From positions 1 through 9,776 of the forward strand of contig JACZRM010000048.1 of NCBI GenBank assembly GCA_022576105.1: a stretch of DNA of 9,776 nucleotides. Reading direction: 5' to 3'. The DNA is from Chloroflexota bacterium. Lineage in GTDB: Bacteria; Chloroflexota; Dehalococcoidia; UBA3495. Position 1 is the stretch's first letter. Each line of letters starts with the position of its first letter. The notes below the pieces were generated by a model. The model did not search any database. It was not told the DNA's origin and saw nothing but the letters and a program-made list of their open reading frames with translations. The translations under genes were made by a program, and so were the position numbers. Below, piece by piece: positions 365 through 9,374 of this stretch.

Positions 365-1462
365 TTAAGCGTCGGGAAAGCGGATTACCGAGCGCAGCGT
401 CTCGCCCCGCTGCATCGCCTCAAAAGCGGCCTCGGTATCTTCCAGTTTTATCACCCGCGACACCACTCGGTCCAGGTCTAACTCGCCGTTCAGGTAATAG
501 CCGGCCAGCAAAGGGAAGTCGCGGGAAGGTAGGCAGTCGCCGTACCAGCTAACCCGCAGAGCGCCGCCCAGCCCAAAGAATTGCAGCATCGGCAGCTCCA
601 GCTTCATGGTTGGGTCTGGCACGCCGATCAAGGTGCAGGTACCCGCCAGGTCTCGCGACCACAGGGCCTGCAGCAGGGTCTGGGGAGTGCCCACCGCCTC
701 AAAGGAGTAGTCCACCCCGTGGCCGTCGGTCAATTCTTTGATCGCCGCCACCGGGTCGCCTTTGGTGGCGTCCACCACATCGGTTGCGCCGAATTCCTTG
801 GCCCATTCCAGCTTGTTGGCGGCGATGTCAACGCCAATTATTTTGGATGCTTTGGCCAGCTTGGCGCCCATGATTACGCTGTTGCCGATTCCCCCGCACC
901 CGAATACCGCTACGGTGCTGCCCCGGCGCACCCCGGCAGTGTACAGGACGGCCCCCACGCCGGTGGTTACGCCGCAGCCCAGCAGGGAGGCTTGCTCCGG
1001 GGGGCACTCCTTGGGCACCGGCACGGCCTGCTTGGCGGAGACCACGGTGTGGGTGCAAAAAGTGCCAATGCCCAGTGCTGGGCTCAACCTGGCGTTGTCT
1101 TTCTTGGCGGTCATCCTGGGCTGCGCGTTGAGGCTGGCCGAGCACAGGTTGAGCTGACCCAGGGCGCAGAACCGGCAATAGCCGCAGGGCGCCCGCCAGG
1201 CCAGTACGACATAGTCTCCTATCTTGGGCTCGGTCACGCCTTCGCCAACAGCTTGCACGATCCCGGCGCCCTCGTGGCCCAATAAGTAGGGGAAGTCGTT
1301 GCCGATTGCACCCAGCTTGTAGTGCAAATCGGTGTGGCAAACCCCGCTGGCCTGGATGCGCACCAGGACCTCGCCGGGGCCTGGGTCTTCGATAATTATT
1401 TCTTCTAATTCAGTGGGTTCTCCCACCTTCCTGGAAATTACTCCCAGTCCGGTAATCGACAC
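365..1462 (-). CDS. Zn-dependent alcohol dehydrogenase, class III / S-(hydroxymethyl)mycothiol dehydrogenase-like
   Basis: A 365-residue medium-chain dehydrogenase/reductase. The GroES-like catalytic domain has zinc ligands Cys42 (GVCHTDLH), His63-Glu64 (GHEGAG) and Cys163 (LLGCG). The structural zinc lobe has Cys93, Cys96, Cys99 and Cys107. The Rossmann motif GCGGIG is at 188-193, and Asp212 at the end of the next strand indicates NAD(H). The overall text (GVISRK.GEP.EL, ALGIG.F, SWYGDCLPSRDFPLL, ETLRSVI) closely resembles mycothiol-dependent formaldehyde dehydrogenase (MscR), so oxidation of a thiol-formaldehyde adduct or an alcohol is plausible; the substrate is not proven. The start is GTG at 1462 with GGAGG eight bases upstream. 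An ATG at 1470 is out of frame and abuts the ribosome site. It is the middle gene of a CoA-transferase/dehydrogenase/TPR operon. Length is normal for the family. Confidence 0.9.
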   Translation of the reverse strand: MSITGLGVISRKVGEPTELEEIIIEDPGPGEVLVRIQASGVCHTDLHYKLGAIGNDFPYLLGHEGAGIVQAVGEGVTEPKIGDYVVLAWRAPCGYCRFCALGQLNLCSASLNAQPRMTAKKDNARLSPALGIGTFCTHTVVSAKQAVPVPKECPPEQASLLGCGVTTGVGAVLYTAGVRRGSTVAVFGCGGIGNSVIMGAKLAKASKIIGVDIAANKLEWAKEFGATDVVDATKGDPVAAIKELTDGHGVDYSFEAVGTPQTLLQALWSRDLAGTCTLIGVPDPTMKLELPMLQFFGLGGALRVSWYGDCLPSRDFPLLAGYYLNGELDLDRVVSRVIKLEDTEAAFEAMQRGETLRSVIRFPDA

Positions 1463-1500
1463 GGTATCATCCTCCTCCCTGGGTTGAGTTCCCAGATAGT

Positions 1501-1514
1501 ATTATACCTGGTAT
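1501..1514 (-). promoter_or_regulatory. Possible internal promoter/operator: TATAAT plus small palindrome
   Basis: In the 51-base gap before the dehydrogenase gene, the minus strand has a perfect TATAAT (1501-1506). It overlaps an inverted repeat ATACC-T-GGTAT (1504-1514). Only a weak -35 candidate (ACAGGG) exists 17 bases upstream, so this is a faint hint of an internal promoter or operator and no more. Confidence 0.2.
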
Positions 1515-2749
1515 CACACCGCCCCCTGTTCCTCTAGCTGGGACAGTTGCTCCCGTGAGAGGCCGCCAATGCCGCAAAGAATCTCAACGTTGTTTTCGCC
1601 CAGCAGAGGAGGAGTATCGGCGGTAAATTCTTCGCAGTCAGTCAAGTGGATTGGGGTTTTTAGCGACCGGAAGCGACCGCCCAATGTATCATCTGTCTCT
1701 ACGAACATCTGGCGTGCTTCCAGATGAGGGCACTGGTCCAAGTCGGATATGGTCTGAGCGATGCCCATGGAAAAGCCAATCTCGGTCAGCTTCTCAGCTA
1801 CTTCCCACTTAGGCAGGTGCTGGGACCATTCCTCAATAGCCGGTATCACATTACTGAAGTAGAAATCTCCGTCTGGGTCTTTACCCAAATAGCGAGGGTC
1901 TTCGGCCAGATCATCCCTGCCCAATAACTGCCACATTGTGCGGAACCGTTCTTCCGAGCGGACACCGGCCATCAGAACGTAGCCGTCTTTTGCTTTGAAT
2001 GGCATTCCAGCAGTGACCAGACGAGCACGAGAGCGAGTTGGATTCTTGCCGGTCGCCTGGTATACGCTGGAACTGGATATAAGGTGGGACACCATACATT
2101 CGTACATCGACATGTCCACTAGCTGGCCCTGACCAGTCTGCTGTTTGGTTTGCAGCGCAAGGACAATTCCCAAGGCAGTCCACAATCCTGGAACGGAGTC
2201 CCCGATATTGTCTCCCACTGCTTGGGGTCCTCCGTCAAGGTCACCGGTCACCTCCATCCACCCGGCCATTCCCTGGATGCTAAGGTTGTTGGCGGGCCAG
2301 TTGGAATAAGGGCCGCGCAGACCTTCGCTGTCGCCGTAGCCGGTGATGCTGGCGTAGACCAGACCCGGATTTAGTTCGTGCAGGTATTTATAACCCAGGC
2401 CAAGGCGTTCGAAAGCCCCCGGCCCCCAGTTGTCGATTAACACATCCGATTTTCTCACTAGATTCTCAAAGGCCGATTTGCAGAGCGGGTTTCTCAAATC
2501 CAGGGTGACGCTTTTCTTGTTGCGGTTGACTCCCAAATAACGGGAGCTAATCTCCTGTCCATCTTCACCCTGGATAAAGGGGCCCCTTCCTCGGGACAGG
2601 TCGCCAGTACCGGGGCGCTCAATCTTGATGACTTCGGCGCCCATGTCGGCCAGAATCAGAGAGCAGAAAGGCCCGGCGACGATGTGGGTGGCGTCAAGTA
2701 CGCGGATTCCCTTCAGGGGTAGGGGCAGTTTGCCATCGGTGGTGTTCAT
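1514..2749 (-). CDS. CoA-transferase family III (CaiB/BaiF/Frc type)
   Basis: A 411-residue family III CoA-transferase, which moves CoA between carboxylic acids through a covalent aspartyl intermediate. The N-terminal nucleotide-binding fold is textbook: LKGIRVLDATHIVAGPF at 12-28, LADMGAEVIKIERPGTGD at 33-50, then NRNKKSVTLDL and SDVLIDNWGPGAFERLGLGY. The catalytic Asp is most likely Asp184, in the NIGDSVPGLW segment that aligns with the GDS of formyl-CoA transferase. It is followed by QTGQGQLVDMSMYE, where members of the family continue. The acyl substrate cannot be read from sequence; carnitine, oxalate, succinate/benzylsuccinate and many other subgroups share this layout. The ATG at 2749 has GAGGT about seven bases upstream. 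It leads the operon, with the alcohol dehydrogenase following after 51 bases, suggesting a pathway in which an oxidised substrate is handled as a CoA ester. Confidence 0.92.
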   Translation of the reverse strand: MNTTDGKLPLPLKGIRVLDATHIVAGPFCSLILADMGAEVIKIERPGTGDLSRGRGPFIQGEDGQEISSRYLGVNRNKKSVTLDLRNPLCKSAFENLVRKSDVLIDNWGPGAFERLGLGYKYLHELNPGLVYASITGYGDSEGLRGPYSNWPANNLSIQGMAGWMEVTGDLDGGPQAVGDNIGDSVPGLWTALGIVLALQTKQQTGQGQLVDMSMYECMVSHLISSSSVYQATGKNPTRSRARLVTAGMPFKAKDGYVLMAGVRSEERFRTMWQLLGRDDLAEDPRYLGKDPDGDFYFSNVIPAIEEWSQHLPKWEVAEKLTEIGFSMGIAQTISDLDQCPHLEARQMFVETDDTLGGRFRSLKTPIHLTDCEEFTADTPPLLGENNVEILCGIGGLSREQLSQLEEQGAV

Positions 2750-2788
2750 ATTCTTACCTCGGCATTAGCGAGCAGGTTATTCGGCTAG

Positions 2789-2818
2789 AATATACCATAG
2801 CGAGGCCGAACCAGCCAA
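2789..2818 (-). promoter_or_regulatory. Candidate promoter of the CoA-transferase operon
   Basis: On the minus strand, TTGGCT (2813-2818) and TATATT (2789-2794) are separated by 18 bases and sit 40 bases upstream of the CoA-transferase start codon. Each hexamer is a fair match to sigma70 consensus. A six-base inverted repeat, TTCGGC (2780-2785) and GCCGAA (2805-2810), brackets the -10 and could be an operator. There is no experimental support. Confidence 0.35.
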
Positions 2819-2911
2819 AAACACCGTATGCTCGACCGGCATCCGGGCGTTAACGTGGTGCTCCGATAGCCACGAACATCTGAAGAACTTATTCAGTCAT
2901 GTCCTGACCTA

Positions 2912-3351
2912 TTGGCCCGGACTGACCGGTCGTCCCGATGCAGGTGGGCGATCTTTATCTGGGTTTTTCATAGGGAAATAAACGGGATGGCGAATTCAGA
3001 CGCCACTCCGTATCTGTTGGTACAACAAAATACAGGAGCAAACAAACGGCCGTTTATTCCCAAGCTGAGGCGCGACCGGCCAGCCGAGCCGCAGGTGCGC
3101 ACCGATACTTATCAGCTGGGAGCGCTACTCTTGGTGATGCTTACCGGCAAGTATCCCAACCAGGGTGGCATTCGTCTCCTGGAAAATCGCGTGGATGTGG
3201 CCGAGGGCTGACCGAGATTATTCAACGGTGTCTGCCAGAGGACCGGTCAGAGCGTTTTCGAAGCGAGGCAACGCAGGTGCGATCCTTGAACTCTCAGCCA
3301 TGGTCGAATCGGGAGAACAGCAGCACTCAGACGGTTTTGATAATAAACTAA
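2912..3351 (+). pseudogene. Decayed serine/threonine protein kinase C-lobe remnant, frameshifted
   Basis: The plus strand encodes pieces of a bacterial Ser/Thr kinase C-lobe. In the first frame (ending TGA 3209-3211) TDTYQLGALLLVMLTGKYP, at about 3101-3157, matches kinase subdomain IX (DxYxLGxxLxxMLTGxxP). It is preceded by PFIPKLRRDRP, a degraded version of the APE region. A frame shift at the GGG run 3205-3207 moves to the frame reading LTEIIQRCLPEDRSERFRS (3208-3264), matching subdomain XI (L..II.RCL..DP..RF.S). Restoring one G would join the two as AEGLTEII. The stop is then TAA at 3349-3351, overlapping the 3' end of the opposite SDR gene. An upstream HREIN (about 2970) may be a worn HRD loop, but no DFG motif or ATP-binding lobe is present. 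It is probably non-functional. A sequencing indel would explain the shift but not the missing N-lobe. Confidence 0.5.
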
Positions 3352-4226
3352 AAGGGAAATGTCTCCCCTCCGCCCACTGAGATTACCTCCCCGCTGATGT
3401 AGCCAGCGTCATCAGATGCGACGAAAGCGATGGTTGCAGCGACCTCTTCGACCGTGGCGGGCCGATTGAGGCCCAGGGAGAGTGGACGCTCCTGCCGGTT
3501 TCCTTCCTGATCGACCGGTTGCTCGATTTGCGCTTCTTCCGGCACAACACTTCTTTCAACGTGCTCCAGCCGATAATCCCGCGGGTAGACTGTCACCTTT
3601 CCCTGATTCCCTGAGGGCGCCACACAGTTGATTCGGATGCCGTAACGACCGACCTCCTTACAGACCGAGCTGGTTAAACCAATCAGGCCACCTTTGGCGG
3701 CGGCATAGGGGACTCGATTCAATCCGACCAGGGCATGGGTTGCCAGAGTCACGATGTTCCCACCGACACCAGTCTCACTTACCTTGTGCTGCTCAATCAT
3801 GTAGGGCAGCACGGCCCTAGTGCACCAAACCGCGGGCCAAAAGTTCTTATTGACGGTTTCGACGATCTGTTCCGGCGTGTTGTACTGGAAGGGTGTGCTC
3901 CATACCGTGCCACCGACGATGACAATTAGGGAATCGATCCGCCCATAGGTTTCTATGCAGAATTCCATCAGGCTTTGGCAGCCTTCCCAGCTCCGGTAGT
4001 CCCCGACGTGGATGCTGGCGGATTCGCCGACACCCACCACCTCTTCTTGGGTCTTCTGAGCAATATCCTCCGCCCAGTCGCCGATAACGATCTTAGCGCC
4101 TTCCGTCGCCAGACGGCGAACAGTGGCGAGGCCGATCCCTTGGCCAGCTCCGGCAACGACGCAGACCTTGTCCTCGAAACGCCGCGCTCCCCGGGCCAGC
4201 GGGTCCAGGGCCTTGTCTCTGCTCAT
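3348..4226 (-). CDS. Short-chain dehydrogenase/reductase, BenD/XylL-like (cis-diol dehydrogenase type)
   Basis: A 292-residue classical SDR. The dinucleotide motif is GAGQGIG at 26-32, with Asp50 after the second strand suggesting NAD(H). The catalytic segment has Tyr174 and Lys178 (VPYAAAKGG). The residue that should be the catalytic Ser is Thr163 (TLATHALVGLNRVPY); BenD-like enzymes have a Ser there. The LNRVPYAAAKGG stretch and the closing DDAGYISGEVISVGGG resemble the dihydroxycyclohexadiene carboxylate dehydrogenases of benzoate degradation. Residues about 205-250, between NCVAPSGN and LNRPATVEEVA, form a charged insertion in the substrate-loop region. The ATG at 4226 has AGGAGG five bases upstream. 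It stands alone, with 285 gene-poor bases upstream, and ends tail to tail with a kinase remnant. It probably oxidises a hydroxyl or diol substrate; the exact reaction is unknown. Confidence 0.88.
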   Translation of the reverse strand: MSRDKALDPLARGARRFEDKVCVVAGAGQGIGLATVRRLATEGAKIVIGDWAEDIAQKTQEEVVGVGESASIHVGDYRSWEGCQSLMEFCIETYGRIDSLIVIVGGTVWSTPFQYNTPEQIVETVNKNFWPAVWCTRAVLPYMIEQHKVSETGVGGNIVTLATHALVGLNRVPYAAAKGGLIGLTSSVCKEVGRYGIRINCVAPSGNQGKVTVYPRDYRLEHVERSVVPEEAQIEQPVDQEGNRQERPLSLGLNRPATVEEVAATIAFVASDDAGYISGEVISVGGGETFPF

Positions 4227-4511: not shown

Positions 4512-4700
4512 TTAGCTACCAACTACAACCAGCAGTACGAGTAGAGCCGCAGCCCCAATGAGCGTCGATTTGGGATAACGAATTAACCCAGGCCACCACT
4601 CACAGTGGATGAGATTGTCCACTGACAATGGCCCGACTTCGCTGAGTCGGGAGTTCATGGCTCCTTTAATTCCACTATCACTAGGGCCTAACTCCGTCAT
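4512..4700 (-). CDS. Possible small C-terminally anchored membrane protein
   Basis: An open frame of 62 codons overlaps the last 20 bases of the DUF3179 gene in another frame. Its C-terminus is a clean hydrophobic run (about residues 46-60, TLIGAAALLVLLVVV) ending two residues before the stop, the layout of a tail-anchored protein. The N-terminal part has no motif I recognise. ATG 4700 has GGAG four bases upstream. An internal ATG at 4658 has AAAGGAG only two bases upstream and would give 48 residues. Support comes from the membrane segment and the overlap with the preceding gene; no homology was recognised, and chance is possible. Confidence 0.3.
   Translation of the reverse strand: MTELGPSDSGIKGAMNSRLSEVGPLSVDNLIHCEWWPGLIRYPKSTLIGAAALLVLLVVVGS
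4632..4651 (-). repeat. Inverted repeat just after the DUF3179 gene
   Basis: CCCGACT (4632-4638) and AGTCGGG (4645-4651) form a seven-base-pair stem with a six-base loop, beginning 29 bases past the DUF3179 stop codon. There is no U-run after it on the minus strand, so it is not a standard intrinsic terminator. It may stabilise or attenuate the transcript, and it lies inside the small membrane-protein frame. Confidence 0.4.
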
Positions 4701-5820
4701 AAAACTCCGAATGGGGGTAGAAGTCTTGCCAGGCCCAATCTAAGGCAGTGATGTAGGGAACCCGCTGCAAGACTTCTCCCCGTAGTGGCCCACCAACGGC
4801 AATTCCCCGGTTCGCATCCCAGGAGCTACCGGTTTGTAGGTCTACCAATTTCCCTTCTTTAAGAGTGAATTCCAAGTCCCGATCTTTGGTGTTTCTAAGA
4901 AACGAGTGGACCGCCTTCGTGTCGGCGTCCACCAGCAGGACTATTGGGAAATCTCCAATGTTGTCATTTAATACTGCCTCTTCGCTTGCCATTTCAAAGG
5001 GGTAGGCTTTTGCGTACTCTCCCAAGGCTATGCCGATCACGAAGTCGCTGCTAAATCGTCTGCTCCCATTGTAAGGTAAGTCTAAGACTAGGGTTTCGGG
5101 ATGCTCGGCTTGCCAGGCAGCCCAGGGTACTATGCCCGCTGGGATCAGGCCGAGCCGTGTCCCTTCAAGAGGTCCGTCGATGGCCATTCCCCAAGGCTGA
5201 GACCAGACACTTTCGGTCTCATGGTCCCACCAGGTCATCGCTCTCATGAACAAGGCCCCTTGATTGCCAAAAGTGTGGACCTCATCCCCAATCCTCCGGT
5301 CATGAACCAGACCGGTATAGCAAATCGGTCACCAGGTTACAAGGATGGGCACACCTCCCACCACGTCATTAACCATCTCCCTGCGGTTTAGCGGTCCCAC
5401 CGGGTAGGCCTTGCTTTCCCCGTTAATAGCAACCCCTATCACCAGATCCTGTGGGTCAAGGACAACAGATTGTCCAGGAAGGAACTGGGGCTTGTAAATG
5501 GGGTTGATGGCATCCCTGGGAATAAGCTGCCTGAACCGGCGAAAGTCAACTTCAACCTCCCTGGTGCTGTCCAAGGACGCCCGCGGAGCTTCCGCGGGCG
5601 GATCTAGCGGTGCTACCACAGAGGGTTTTTCTTTAGGCTGAAGGTTAGGTGCCTGTTGGGCGCTTCCGTTCCCCGTCTGTGAGACAGGGGCGCTCAGCCC
5701 CTCAACGCCGGAGTTATCATCTCTTGGCTCGCCAAACCTGCCAACTAGAAGAGCGCCAGCGGAAAGGAACAAGGTTAGCACCAGTAATCCGATTACTGCG
5801 AGTGTATATTGTTTCTTCAA
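4681..5820 (-). CDS. DUF3179 protein, probable selenoprotein (in-frame TGA at the CPxC Cys)
   Basis: One continuous frame of 380 codons, broken only by TGA at 5329-5331 (codon 164). Residues 5-27 are a membrane anchor, 30-90 a Pro/Ser-rich linker, and 91-379 the DUF3179 domain: RQLIPRDAINPIYKP, VIGVAINGESKAYP, EMVNDVVGGVPILVTW, then TGA, then PICYTGLVHDRR, FGNQGALF and SVWSQ. In the family as I know it this place reads VTYCPLC, so the TGA stands for the conserved first Cys, giving U-P-I-C. Downstream coding stays in frame with no other lesion, and a SECIS-like hairpin follows. The start is TTG 5820 with GGAGG five bases upstream; internal starts after the TGA would remove the conserved core. 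The domain is an internal duplication (about 126-240 and 260-370), and only the first copy carries the Sec/Cys motif. Function is unknown; a thiol-selenol redox role outside the membrane is inference. A nonsense mutation (TGC/TGT to TGA) is the alternative. Confidence 0.8.
5296..5315 (-). promoter_or_regulatory. SECIS-like hairpin downstream of the in-frame TGA
   Basis: On the minus strand CCGGTC (5315-5310) pairs perfectly with GACCGG (5301-5296) around the eight-base loop TGGTTCAT. The stem starts 13 bases after the TGA and the loop 19 bases after it, with G as the second loop base. These values fit the bacterial SECIS pattern I know: a stem of at least four pairs, a small loop with a G in its first two bases, and a loop about 16-37 nt past UGA. 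SelB binding is not shown. Confidence 0.6.
5578..5600 (-). repeat. Perfect GC-rich hairpin inside the DUF3179 linker
   Basis: CGCCCGCGGA (5578-5587) and TCCGCGGGCG (5591-5600) are perfect reverse complements separated by GCT. This makes a very stable ten-base-pair hairpin in the mRNA, within the Pro/Ala-rich linker (about residues 74-81) and upstream of the TGA codon. It could be a chance product of Pro/Arg/Ala codons, or a structure that slows ribosomes. Confidence 0.6.
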
Positions 5821-5891
5821 CGCTCCCTCCTACTGTACATACGTGGCAGAAAGTGGTCATGGATGCAGGACTGACGAGCCTTGCTATTGCC

Positions 5892-6382: not shown

Positions 6383-6991
6383 ATGATAAAAAGTGCTCAG
6401 GTCGCCTACTTACTGCCGATCCTGCTGGTTTTGGTGGCTGCCTGTGGGCCTGCCCAATCGGCGACTGATGGTCCAACCGCTAGGAGAGACGCGACAGTTT
6501 CGGCAAATTCCTCCGCGGCAATTGAAGTTGGGTCCACTGCGCCCGAGGTTCTTGCCAAGACTACGTTTGTGCATGACGGCTTTCGCACCGAAGTCAGCAA
6601 GACCATCGAAGGAAAAGAGGTCGGTAGCCGGGCCTCTTCCCCCGCCGGGGGTAGGCAAGCGGTGACGGTGAGCTTGCGAAATCTCAGCCAATCCACGGGA
6701 GGTATTCAGAGTCGGGCTACCATCAATTTTGCTTCGGGACTTAATAATTTCGTGGTGCTTCCTACCGGAGAGGGGCCGCTAACCCTGTATTTGCATCGGG
6801 ATGGCACGCTGGGTCCGTCGCCGGACGATGGCGGATTTACTTGACCTGACATTTTACCGAGCGGATCCGCTCTTACTTTTTCGACGGTTTTGGACCAGCC
6901 GTTGTCCGGCAACAGCTACAGCTTTACCCTGAATTTGGCGACCGTAGCGCCCAGTCCGATACAAGTCGCCATCTCCGTGAACCCGGCGTAG
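6383..6991 (+). CDS. Secreted lipoprotein with an in-frame TGA at codon 154
   Basis: A predicted lipoprotein: MIKSAQ, a hydrophobic stretch at about 7-20 and a lipobox VAAC with the lipidated Cys21. A Ser/Thr/Ala-rich linker follows, then a beta-rich Ig/CARDB-like segment (VTVSLRNLSQ, RATINFASGLNNFVVLP, LTLYLHRDG). TGA at 6842-6844 interrupts the frame, which then stays open for 48 codons (ILPSGSALTFSTVL, SYSFTLNLATV, IQVAISVNPA) to TAG 6989-6991. That tail has the same beta-strand character, so it is most likely the true C-terminus. A perfect palindrome lies just downstream of the TGA at SECIS-like distance. The TGA may therefore encode Sec, be a Trp or Cys nonsense mutation, or be a sequencing error. 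ATG 6383 (GTG at 6380 is adjacent) has no strong ribosome site; it was chosen because it begins the signal peptide. The stop is 13 bases before the hydrolase gene, so it probably leads that operon. Family not recognised. Confidence 0.6.
6859..6872 (+). promoter_or_regulatory. Palindromic hairpin 19 nt after the lipoprotein TGA
   Basis: GAGCGGATCCGCTC is a perfect 14-base palindrome. It can fold as GAGCG/CGCTC with the loop GATC, whose first base is G. The loop starts 19 bases after TGA 6842-6844, the same distance as in the DUF3179 gene. This is compatible with a bacterial SECIS, but the loop is small and a palindrome this size can arise by chance. Confidence 0.35.
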
Positions 6992-7004: not shown

Positions 7005-7901
7005 ATGGAAAGATACCAGTACCCCTTTGAGAGTCACTTCATCACCATTGATGGAGTCCGCATCCACTACGTGGACGAGGGCCAAGGCGACCCGGTCCTG
7101 ATGGTCCACGGTCAGCCTACCTGGTCTTACCTGTGGCGTAACATTATCCCGGTCGTAGCCAGGAGCCATCGCGCTATATCCTTAGACCTCATGGGGTTCG
7201 GACTCTCCGACAAACCCCAGGACCGGCAGTACTCCTTCGATGAGCACACCCGCATCCTTCGGGAATTTATCGAGGCGTTAGAGCTTAAGAATCTGACCCT
7301 GGTCCTCCACGATTGGGGCGGCCCCATCGGGCTGGAGTATGCCGTCTATCATCAGGAGAACATGAAAAAGCTGGTGCTGCTAAATACCTTAGCCACGGTT
7401 GAATTCAAGCTCCCCTGGGTCTTCAAGGCGGCCTTCCGCTCTCCGTTCCTCTCCGATTTTCTAGTACGTCGTTTGAACATCTTTGGCCTTCTTGCCTTCA
7501 GATTTGGTGTGCGCCATAGTTTGAGCAAGCAGGTGCTCCAGAACTACCGGGACCCTCACCCTAACTACGCTTCTCGGAAAGGAGTAGCTCAATTCCCTCG
7601 CCTGATTCCCGCCAGACCGCGGGATGCCACTTATGGCCCCATTAAAGCCATCTCTGAGGCTCTGGCCAGCTTCCCTATCCCCACTTTGTTCCTTCTTAGC
7701 GATGGAGACCCGGTCACGGCCCGTATTGATGCACGACGGGTCATCGAGCGCATGCCCAACGCCAGACTCGCCGAGGTGATGGACGCTGGCCACTACCTCC
7801 AGGAAGACCAGCCCGAAGAGGTGGCCCGGAATATTCTGGAATTTCTGGATGAAACCGAGCCAAACCCTACTCCCACCCCGCATGTATCGACAGATGAGTA
7901 A
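7005..7901 (+). CDS. Haloalkane dehalogenase-like alpha/beta hydrolase
   Basis: A 298-residue alpha/beta hydrolase that reads like haloalkane dehalogenase, which cleaves carbon-halogen bonds hydrolytically to give an alcohol and halide. Seen: the oxyanion/halide loop HGQPTWSYLWRNIIP (35-49), LDLMGFGLSDKP (60-71), the nucleophile elbow VLHDWGGPIG with Asp103 and the halide-binding Trp104, an acid at Asp235 (SDGDPVT, type I/III position) and the catalytic His263 (DAGHYLQED). The cap domain is about 130-215. The family normally has Asn (or Glu in DhlA) at the position of Gln37, so the second halide contact is altered and specificity is uncertain. Epoxide hydrolase is less likely because Trp follows Asp103 directly. 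ATG 7005 lies 13 bases after the lipoprotein stop, with GGGGGA eight bases upstream. The Pro/Thr-rich tail (285-294) is unusual. The next gene follows after 20 bases. Confidence 0.85.
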   Translation: MERYQYPFESHFITIDGVRIHYVDEGQGDPVLMVHGQPTWSYLWRNIIPVVARSHRAISLDLMGFGLSDKPQDRQYSFDEHTRILREFIEALELKNLTLVLHDWGGPIGLEYAVYHQENMKKLVLLNTLATVEFKLPWVFKAAFRSPFLSDFLVRRLNIFGLLAFRFGVRHSLSKQVLQNYRDPHPNYASRKGVAQFPRLIPARPRDATYGPIKAISEALASFPIPTLFLLSDGDPVTARIDARRVIERMPNARLAEVMDAGHYLQEDQPEEVARNILEFLDETEPNPTPTPHVSTDE

Positions 7902-7921
7902 ATTGGACTGAGAGGATTCCT

Positions 7922-8620
7922 ATGGCTCGCAGCAGTTTCCGTACCGTGGTTATAAAGGTGAGCGGCAATCGCACTGTACTGCGCATATTCTATTACCCGT
8001 GGCGGGCCTTCCCCTATCCTTTGCGCCGGGCAGTCACCGCTCTGTTCATAAAAGTTGTGCTCTTGCAGAAGAGGCTGTTCCGTGTGGATAGTCAGAACGA
8101 GCTTACCCTGACTAAACAATTGCTCAATCTCTCTTTCTGGGGTATTCCAGAGATAGAGCTCAAGGATTATCGCCTGCATATCGAAGGAGCTGTGGCGCAG
8201 CCAATGAGTTTCTCCTTTGATGAAATTCGTGCCCTGCCCTCGGTCACTCGTCAGGTGCGCATGGACTGTGTGGGAGGCCCCCGAAACAACTCCATCATGA
8301 AGGGGGTATTACTCAAGGAGTTCCTGGACCGTCTAGGTATCGAGCCTGAGGCACAGCGGGTGGTTTTCCATTGCGCCGACCGCTACTACACCTCAATAGA
8401 CCTCAAGGAGTTGCTGGATAGAGGAGCCTTTCTGGCCTACACCGTGAATGATGGAGCAATACCCAAGTTCGGCTATCCCCTGCGCCTGGCGATAACGGGA
8501 AAGTACGGCTACCAGTGGGCAAAATGGGTAGTGGGGATCGAGCTAGTTGCCGATGCGCGCAAGGGATACTGGGCACACCTGGGCTTGCCCGACCGGGCCG
8601 ACCTGGGGGACGTTTGGTAA
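7922..8620 (+). CDS. Molybdopterin-binding oxidoreductase, sulfite oxidase/MsrP (YedY) family
   Basis: A 232-residue protein with the oxidoreductase molybdopterin-binding fold. The domain starts near residue 72 (WGIPEIELKDYRLHIEGAV), has the probable molybdenum-ligand Cys116 (VRMDCVGG), then GVLLKEFLDRLGI, VVFHCADRYYTSIDL and the characteristic GYPLRLAITGKYGYQWAKWV toward the end. It lacks the C-terminal dimerisation domain of eukaryotic sulfite oxidase, so it belongs with the short bacterial catalytic subunits. The N-terminal 60 residues are basic with a moderately hydrophobic stretch (about 33-49); no twin-arginine motif of the standard form is seen, so location is unclear. The substrate is unknown (sulfite, sulfoxide or other). 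ATG 7922 has GAGG six bases upstream and follows the hydrolase by 20 bases, so it is most likely in the same operon. It would need molybdenum cofactor made elsewhere in the genome. Confidence 0.88.
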   Translation: MARSSFRTVVIKVSGNRTVLRIFYYPWRAFPYPLRRAVTALFIKVVLLQKRLFRVDSQNELTLTKQLLNLSFWGIPEIELKDYRLHIEGAVAQPMSFSFDEIRALPSVTRQVRMDCVGGPRNNSIMKGVLLKEFLDRLGIEPEAQRVVFHCADRYYTSIDLKELLDRGAFLAYTVNDGAIPKFGYPLRLAITGKYGYQWAKWVVGIELVADARKGYWAHLGLPDRADLGDVW

Positions 8621-8756
8621 GTTCAAATCGTCACCTGGGATTTGTCAGGACTCAGAACGCGTTAAGGCCATGCACCATCAATTCGGTGCAGAAGATTTCA
8701 TCTGGGAAATCGCGGTTAAGATATCCCACTCATTGGTGCGTCCAGAGGTCTTGAGC

Positions 8757-9374
8757 TTGGACTGGTTGCTGGCGATACCGTTAAGTATCGGAGCCTATCT
8801 TCTCGGTTCCATACCCTCCGCCTACATACTGGTGTATATGGTCAGAGGGGTGGACATTCGGCAGGTGGGTACCCGAAATGTAGGGGCGATGAACGCCTTC
8901 GATCAGGTTGGGCCTTGGGGTGGTCTGCTGGTGCTGCTGGCCGACGGTGGTAAGGGTGTGCTGGCAGCTTTACTCCCTGGCTGGGTCGGCGCTCCGGACT
9001 GGGTGGTCTTCCTGACCGCCACGTTAGCCGTCGCAGGGCACAACTGGCCGGTGTTCCTAAACTTTCGTGGTGGAAAAGGGGCTGCGGTCATCCTCGGCAT
9101 CTCCCTGGCAGTACTACCGGTGCTGACCATGATCGCTGTGGGGCCAACTGTGCTGGTTATCCTCCTGACCCGCAACGTTATCATTGGCGCAGGGCTGGGA
9201 TTTATCCTATTGAATACACTATTAGTGGTAACCAACCAGTGTGCCGAGATGATTGCCCTCTGCCTCTTTTTAACCTTTGTGGCCACCGTTACCTACGTGG
9301 TTAGCATCTGGACACAGATAATCACCGCTATTAAAACCCACCACTGGCGCAGGTTGTTCTATGGGCCAGGCTGA
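8757..9374 (+). CDS. plsY: Glycerol-3-phosphate acyltransferase PlsY, divergent
   Basis: An integral membrane acyltransferase that uses acyl-phosphate to acylate glycerol-3-phosphate, the first step of phospholipid synthesis. Numbered from TTG 8757: YLLGSIPSAYI at 14-24, VGTRNVGAMNAF at 37-48 (canonical enzymes have GSGNxGATN), a GKG at 65-67 and GHNWPVFLNFRGGKGAA at 94-110. Hydrophobic helices fill the rest. The frame is open much further upstream. I prefer TTG 8757 because AGAGG lies eight bases before it and the product then begins at the first membrane helix, as usual (205 residues). ATG 8670 (234 residues) has AAGG only two bases away and sits against a hairpin. The preceding gene ends at 8620. 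The TGA stop overlaps the next ATG. The changes in the GSGN motif make it a divergent PlsY; a paralogue with a different role is possible. Confidence 0.85.
   Translation: MDWLLAIPLSIGAYLLGSIPSAYILVYMVRGVDIRQVGTRNVGAMNAFDQVGPWGGLLVLLADGGKGVLAALLPGWVGAPDWVVFLTATLAVAGHNWPVFLNFRGGKGAAVILGISLAVLPVLTMIAVGPTVLVILLTRNVIIGAGLGFILLNTLLVVTNQCAEMIALCLFLTFVATVTYVVSIWTQIITAIKTHHWRRLFYGPG

Follow-up and report, generated by a model that had tools for sequence, protein, structure and literature searches.

The 9,776-nucleotide stretch of DNA analysed here (the window), contig JACZRM010000048.1 of a Chloroflexota bacterium, carries on its minus strand a gene of the DUF3179 family (PF11376) that contains one in-frame TGA. 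This codon very probably encodes selenocysteine (Sec), because TGA recurs at the same place in related genes, a hairpin follows it more often than expected, and the genomes of relatives hold the selenocysteine machinery. We are strongly confident of the explanation as a whole, namely that the gene encodes a DUF3179 selenoprotein, probably exported and membrane-anchored, whose UGA is decoded by way of SelB and the hairpin.

Within the frame at 5820-4681 the TGA at 5331-5329 is the sole internal stop, and the frame is otherwise open over 379 residues. PF11376 matches the two halves separately, with 51.8 bits for the part before the TGA and 108.9 bits for the part from 5253 on, while the read-through product scores 212.2 bits against a gathering cut-off of 27 bits and thus belongs to the family. 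The gene therefore combines one in-frame UGA with an otherwise open frame and conservation on both flanks, as expected of a selenoprotein gene. An earlier reading made from the letters alone (the sequence-only reading) had described a frame intact on either side of a TGA that replaces the first Cys of CPxC, giving T-W-U-P-I-C-Y-T-G, and this description proved accurate.

A protein search returned 713 homologues, of which the 120 listed were counted; it was confined to proteins 0.55-1.75 times as long as the query, on which the share of fragments depends. The site is spanned by 34 of these homologues, and its residue is Cys in 32, as the sequence-only reading had anticipated, Glu in one and Gly in one. 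A further 86 are stored as pieces: five N-terminal ones (70-76% identity), every one ending exactly at Trp163, and 81 C-terminal ones whose match starts at query residue 166-192. The Glu and Gly variants (P0002, EPSS; P0020, GPIC) are known here as protein sequences. Two proteins named 'DUF3179 domain-containing (seleno)protein' at NCBI (P0004 and P0034) nevertheless carry Cys at the site. The prevalence of Cys bears on the suggestion that UGA is read as Trp or a near-cognate residue, through another code or read-through. We consider this highly improbable: the open frame would suit it, but nothing more does, and it is opposed by the Cys column, by the preceding residue, a Trp coded TGG, and by the Sec machinery in most relatives' genomes.

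At the DNA level, one scan of a genome collection yielded 81 aligned sites in 76 loci, with TGA at 64 (in 64 different loci), TGC at 11 and TGT at 6. Judged by record title, the TGA loci come from Chloroflexota (SAR202, Dehalococcoidia, Anaerolineae and others), from Acidimicrobiia and other Actinomycetota, and from single metagenome-assembled genomes (MAGs) named Acidobacteria and Spirochaetaceae; the closest to the window gene are L001 (SAR202) and L002 (Dehalococcoidia), each 65% identical. Two loci hold three DUF3179 sites in series on one strand (L010 at 2806, 4083 and 5304; L021 at 2822, 4099 and 5304), two of them Cys and one TGA, so Sec and Cys paralogues adjoin. The genome of locus L022 (G022), a single-contig Dehalococcoidia chromosome, has four DUF3179 genes, and every one of them contains a single TGA. 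Of 148 sampled genomes of its class, 55 contained DUF3179, and a hand count found one internal TGA in 23 DUF3179 rows, the stop lying anywhere in the match; counted likewise, two matches (G182:C27 and G140:C45) have one internal TAG each.

There is a vanishingly small chance that the TGA is a sequencing or assembly error and the codon really TGC or TGT. A change of one base would suffice; against this, the same TGA is found in 64 of the 76 loci, the five N-terminal fragments end at the same place, and the TGA is followed by a hairpin-forming stretch that is lacking in the Cys genes.

This hairpin, CCGGUC-UGGUUCAU-GACCGG, lies within the published limits for a bacterial selenocysteine insertion sequence (SECIS). 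Among the TGA genes it occurs in two classes. Class A (n=37) reads ACC GGT CTN GTN CAY GAC CGG in nearly all members; four Cys sites that share its TG..DR motif have the Gly codon GGC or GGG, in contrast to GGT in class A. Class B (n=27), mostly from Acidimicrobiia and other Actinomycetota with four from Chloroflexota, forms CGGCGAUG-GUN-CAUCGCCG or variants of it. One core pair is mismatched as G-A in L017 and L018 and becomes G-U in L009 and L016, where the Asp is Val. With the bulge placed by hand, three of the five core pairs show changes on both sides. Defined as all six pairs of class A or at least seven of the eight of class B, the family hairpin is present in 63 of 65 TGA genes (all except L012 and L030) and at none of 17 Cys sites; 2000 synonymous draws gave an expectation of 3.6 TGA genes (standard deviation 1.8, maximum 10). 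This excess is not a clean probability, because the definition came from the same sequences, which share ancestry, but the Cys-site control and the both-sided pair changes are partly independent of definition and kinship. When the strict published SECIS rules were applied to predicted folds, 34 of 65 TGA genes passed (12.2 expected), as did 4 of 17 Cys sites (5.2 expected). In 30 of the 31 TGA genes that failed, the predicted fold places the loop G third, which accounts for the failure; a loop-closing U-A pair would bring these 30 back into agreement.

The hairpin also bears on the proposal that the TGA is a true stop, leaving a split gene or pseudogene whose halves are separate or dead. Homologues stored mostly as pieces (81 C-terminal and five N-terminal of 120) would fit such a proposal, as would the internal TAG found, at any position in the match, in two relatives of the class sample. 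However, PF11376 matches both halves, which are conserved across phyla, every stop among the 81 aligned sites is TGA with Cys codons at the remainder, and the hairpin exceeds the synonymous expectation. We regard a true stop as very improbable.

We searched for the selenocysteine machinery in the genomes behind 50 of the 76 loci. Of these genomes, 38 carry a TGA gene (30 from the top of the list plus eight of class B) and 12 a Cys-only locus; 26 TGA loci lay outside this sample. Matches over cut-off were found for selB in 35 of the 38 TGA-gene genomes, all 12 genomes with a Cys-only locus and 2 of 14 controls, for selA in 28 of 38 and 1 of 14 controls, and for selD in 34 of 38 and 2 of 14 controls. 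Over-cut-off selD matches in relatives mostly (35 of 37) hold one TGA themselves, like known Sec-containing SelD. tRNA-Sec passed the standard cut-off in 35 of 38 TGA-gene genomes; because 5 of 14 controls also passed, it was counted only at 55 bits or more, a threshold of our own, which left 33 of 38. All of selA, selB, selD and a strong tRNA-Sec occur together in 24 of the 38, and G022 likewise has all four. We suggest that SelB would bind the hairpin just 3' of the UGA and bring Sec-tRNA-Sec, so that the UGA would be read as selenocysteine, an insertion for which relatives hold the machinery.

Profile comparison shows that the protein consists of two homologous beta domains in tandem; the first repeat bears the UxxC and the second is without Cys. 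Structure comparison suggests that these domains are possibly built on a Rieske-like scaffold. The ligands of a Rieske cluster are two Cys and two His in two separate motifs. A Rieske iron-sulphur protein was ruled out on this account, as only Sec164 and Cys167 are available, both in one CxxC. NirD is a Rieske-fold protein without a cluster. Apart from Sec164, the protein has no Cys but Cys167, which may act as the resolving residue. The selenol/thiol couple of Sec164 and Cys167 would then cycle through a selenenylsulphide, in an oxidoreductase placed outside the cytoplasmic membrane, and we lean towards such redox chemistry for the protein. Where Cys paralogues adjoin the Sec gene, their chemistry is presumably similar. 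For DUF3179, a Pfam family whose function is unknown, a selenol at CPxC provides a concrete redox hypothesis; it rests on the selenol, the possibly Rieske-like tandem domains and a selected SECIS hairpin, and a comparison of Sec and Cys forms can test it.

The window holds a second gene with an in-frame TGA, 560 bases from the first, which encodes a lipoprotein-like product and continues for 48 codons beyond the TGA. Two protein searches (17 and 15 matches) gave 31 distinct relatives, all ending at the place of the TGA, with last residues GFT in 24, AFT in three, PFT in two, GIT in one and GFI in one. In DNA, TGA occupies this column in the window, L081 (genome G010) and L117 (G511), and similarity runs on past it. 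When the window, L081, L117 and L082 are compared in pairs, third codon positions beyond the TGA vary most in each of the six comparisons (differences of 21, 11 and 30 between the window and L081), so that coding conservation continues in the same frame past a shared UGA, as expected of a selenoprotein gene. L082 (G007) has TTA (Leu) at the column, where three relatives at 77-80% identity stop, and TCA (Ser) stands there in L085, a distant relative with 27% identity; both codons are a single base away from TGA. In a structural model (mean predicted local distance difference test score 81.7), the part after the TGA lies in confident strands of one jelly-roll-like domain, a part covered by 4 of the 33 rows of the underlying alignment. 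G010 has selA, selB, selD and tRNA-Sec; in G511 the only sign of this machinery is a short selB-like match that stays under the cut-off.

Three points weigh against Sec in the lipoprotein: no Cys occurs at the column, where the two non-TGA copies have Leu and Ser; in the window, the hairpin does not exceed what coding constraint would give; and only three TGA copies are readable. On balance we think it likely that this TGA encodes Sec and that the gene is a second selenoprotein founding an undescribed family. No described family for it was found in the literature searched, among the 119 families in Table 1 of PMC13188914 (compared by name and domain identifier), or as an over-cut-off match in Pfam (four members) or NCBIfam (three members). 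If true, the Sec would be the sole Cys or Sec besides the lipid-anchor Cys, within a jelly-roll-like fold to which the residues after the UGA also belong. The protein would also be unusual in having only Leu and Ser homologues so far; since no Cys form was found, it would escape searches that rely on Cys/Sec pairs.

Features of the window discussed in the text
Feature	Position	Strand	Details
DUF3179 selenoprotein gene	4681..5820	minus	379 codons and TAG stop; TTG start
Shine-Dalgarno-like AGGAGG	5826..5831	minus	5 nt ahead of the TTG start; seen in the sequence
N-terminal helix (residues 2-26)	5743..5817	minus	followed by a low-confidence linker; from secondary structure; suggests probable export and membrane anchoring
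In-frame TGA, residue 164	5329..5331	minus	U of UPIC
Cys167 (TGC)	5320..5322	minus	second residue of UxxC
SECIS hairpin	5296..5315	minus	stem CCGGUC/GACCGG, apical loop UGGUUCAU; 19 nt from UGA to loop
Lipoprotein-like gene, second candidate selenoprotein	6383..6991	plus	202 codons and TAG, TGA read through
In-frame TGA, residue 154	6842..6844	plus	GGFT-U-PDI
Hairpin after the lipoprotein TGA	6859..6872	plus	GAGCG-GAUC-CGCUC; barely within SECIS limits

Neighbouring genes at 365-4226 (minus) and 7005-9374 (plus) encode a zinc alcohol dehydrogenase, a CoA-transferase III, a short-chain dehydrogenase, an alpha/beta hydrolase, a molybdopterin oxidoreductase domain and a glycerol-3-phosphate acyltransferase.

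In summary, selenocysteine at the CPxC position, as proposed by the sequence-only reading, is strongly supported by TGA recurrence, Cys homologues, the hairpin and the machinery of relatives. Its further claim of a new selenoprotein family, with no DUF3179 selenoprotein yet described, fails because two reviews already list one: the tables of PMC9312934 (2022) and PMC13188914 (2026) give a DUF3179 domain-containing protein (pfam11376/PF11376, UxxC/T) as a predicted selenoprotein. With that family on record, the lipoprotein TGA is the more novel lead. For DUF3179, the present analysis contributes the hairpin of its Sec genes, in two covarying classes spread over Chloroflexota and Acidimicrobiia, together with a two-repeat fold that is possibly Rieske-like but lacks cluster ligands.

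Compared with known systems, the DUF3179 protein differs from Rieske ferredoxins and NirD-like Rieske-fold proteins in having no cluster ligands. The window hairpin agrees with the bacterial SECIS model as presented in PMC13188914 in loop size, stem, spacing, loop G and energy, whereas 30 of the 65 TGA genes depart from that model in having the loop G third. The window gene shares Pfam family, UxxC motif and predicted Sec with the DUF3179 entries in the two reviews' tables. PMC9312934 credits its entry to reference 63, the study of the Olavius algarvensis symbiont by Zhang and Gladyshev (2007); that symbiont is a deltaproteobacterium, whereas the present genes come from Chloroflexota, Acidimicrobiia and other MAGs.
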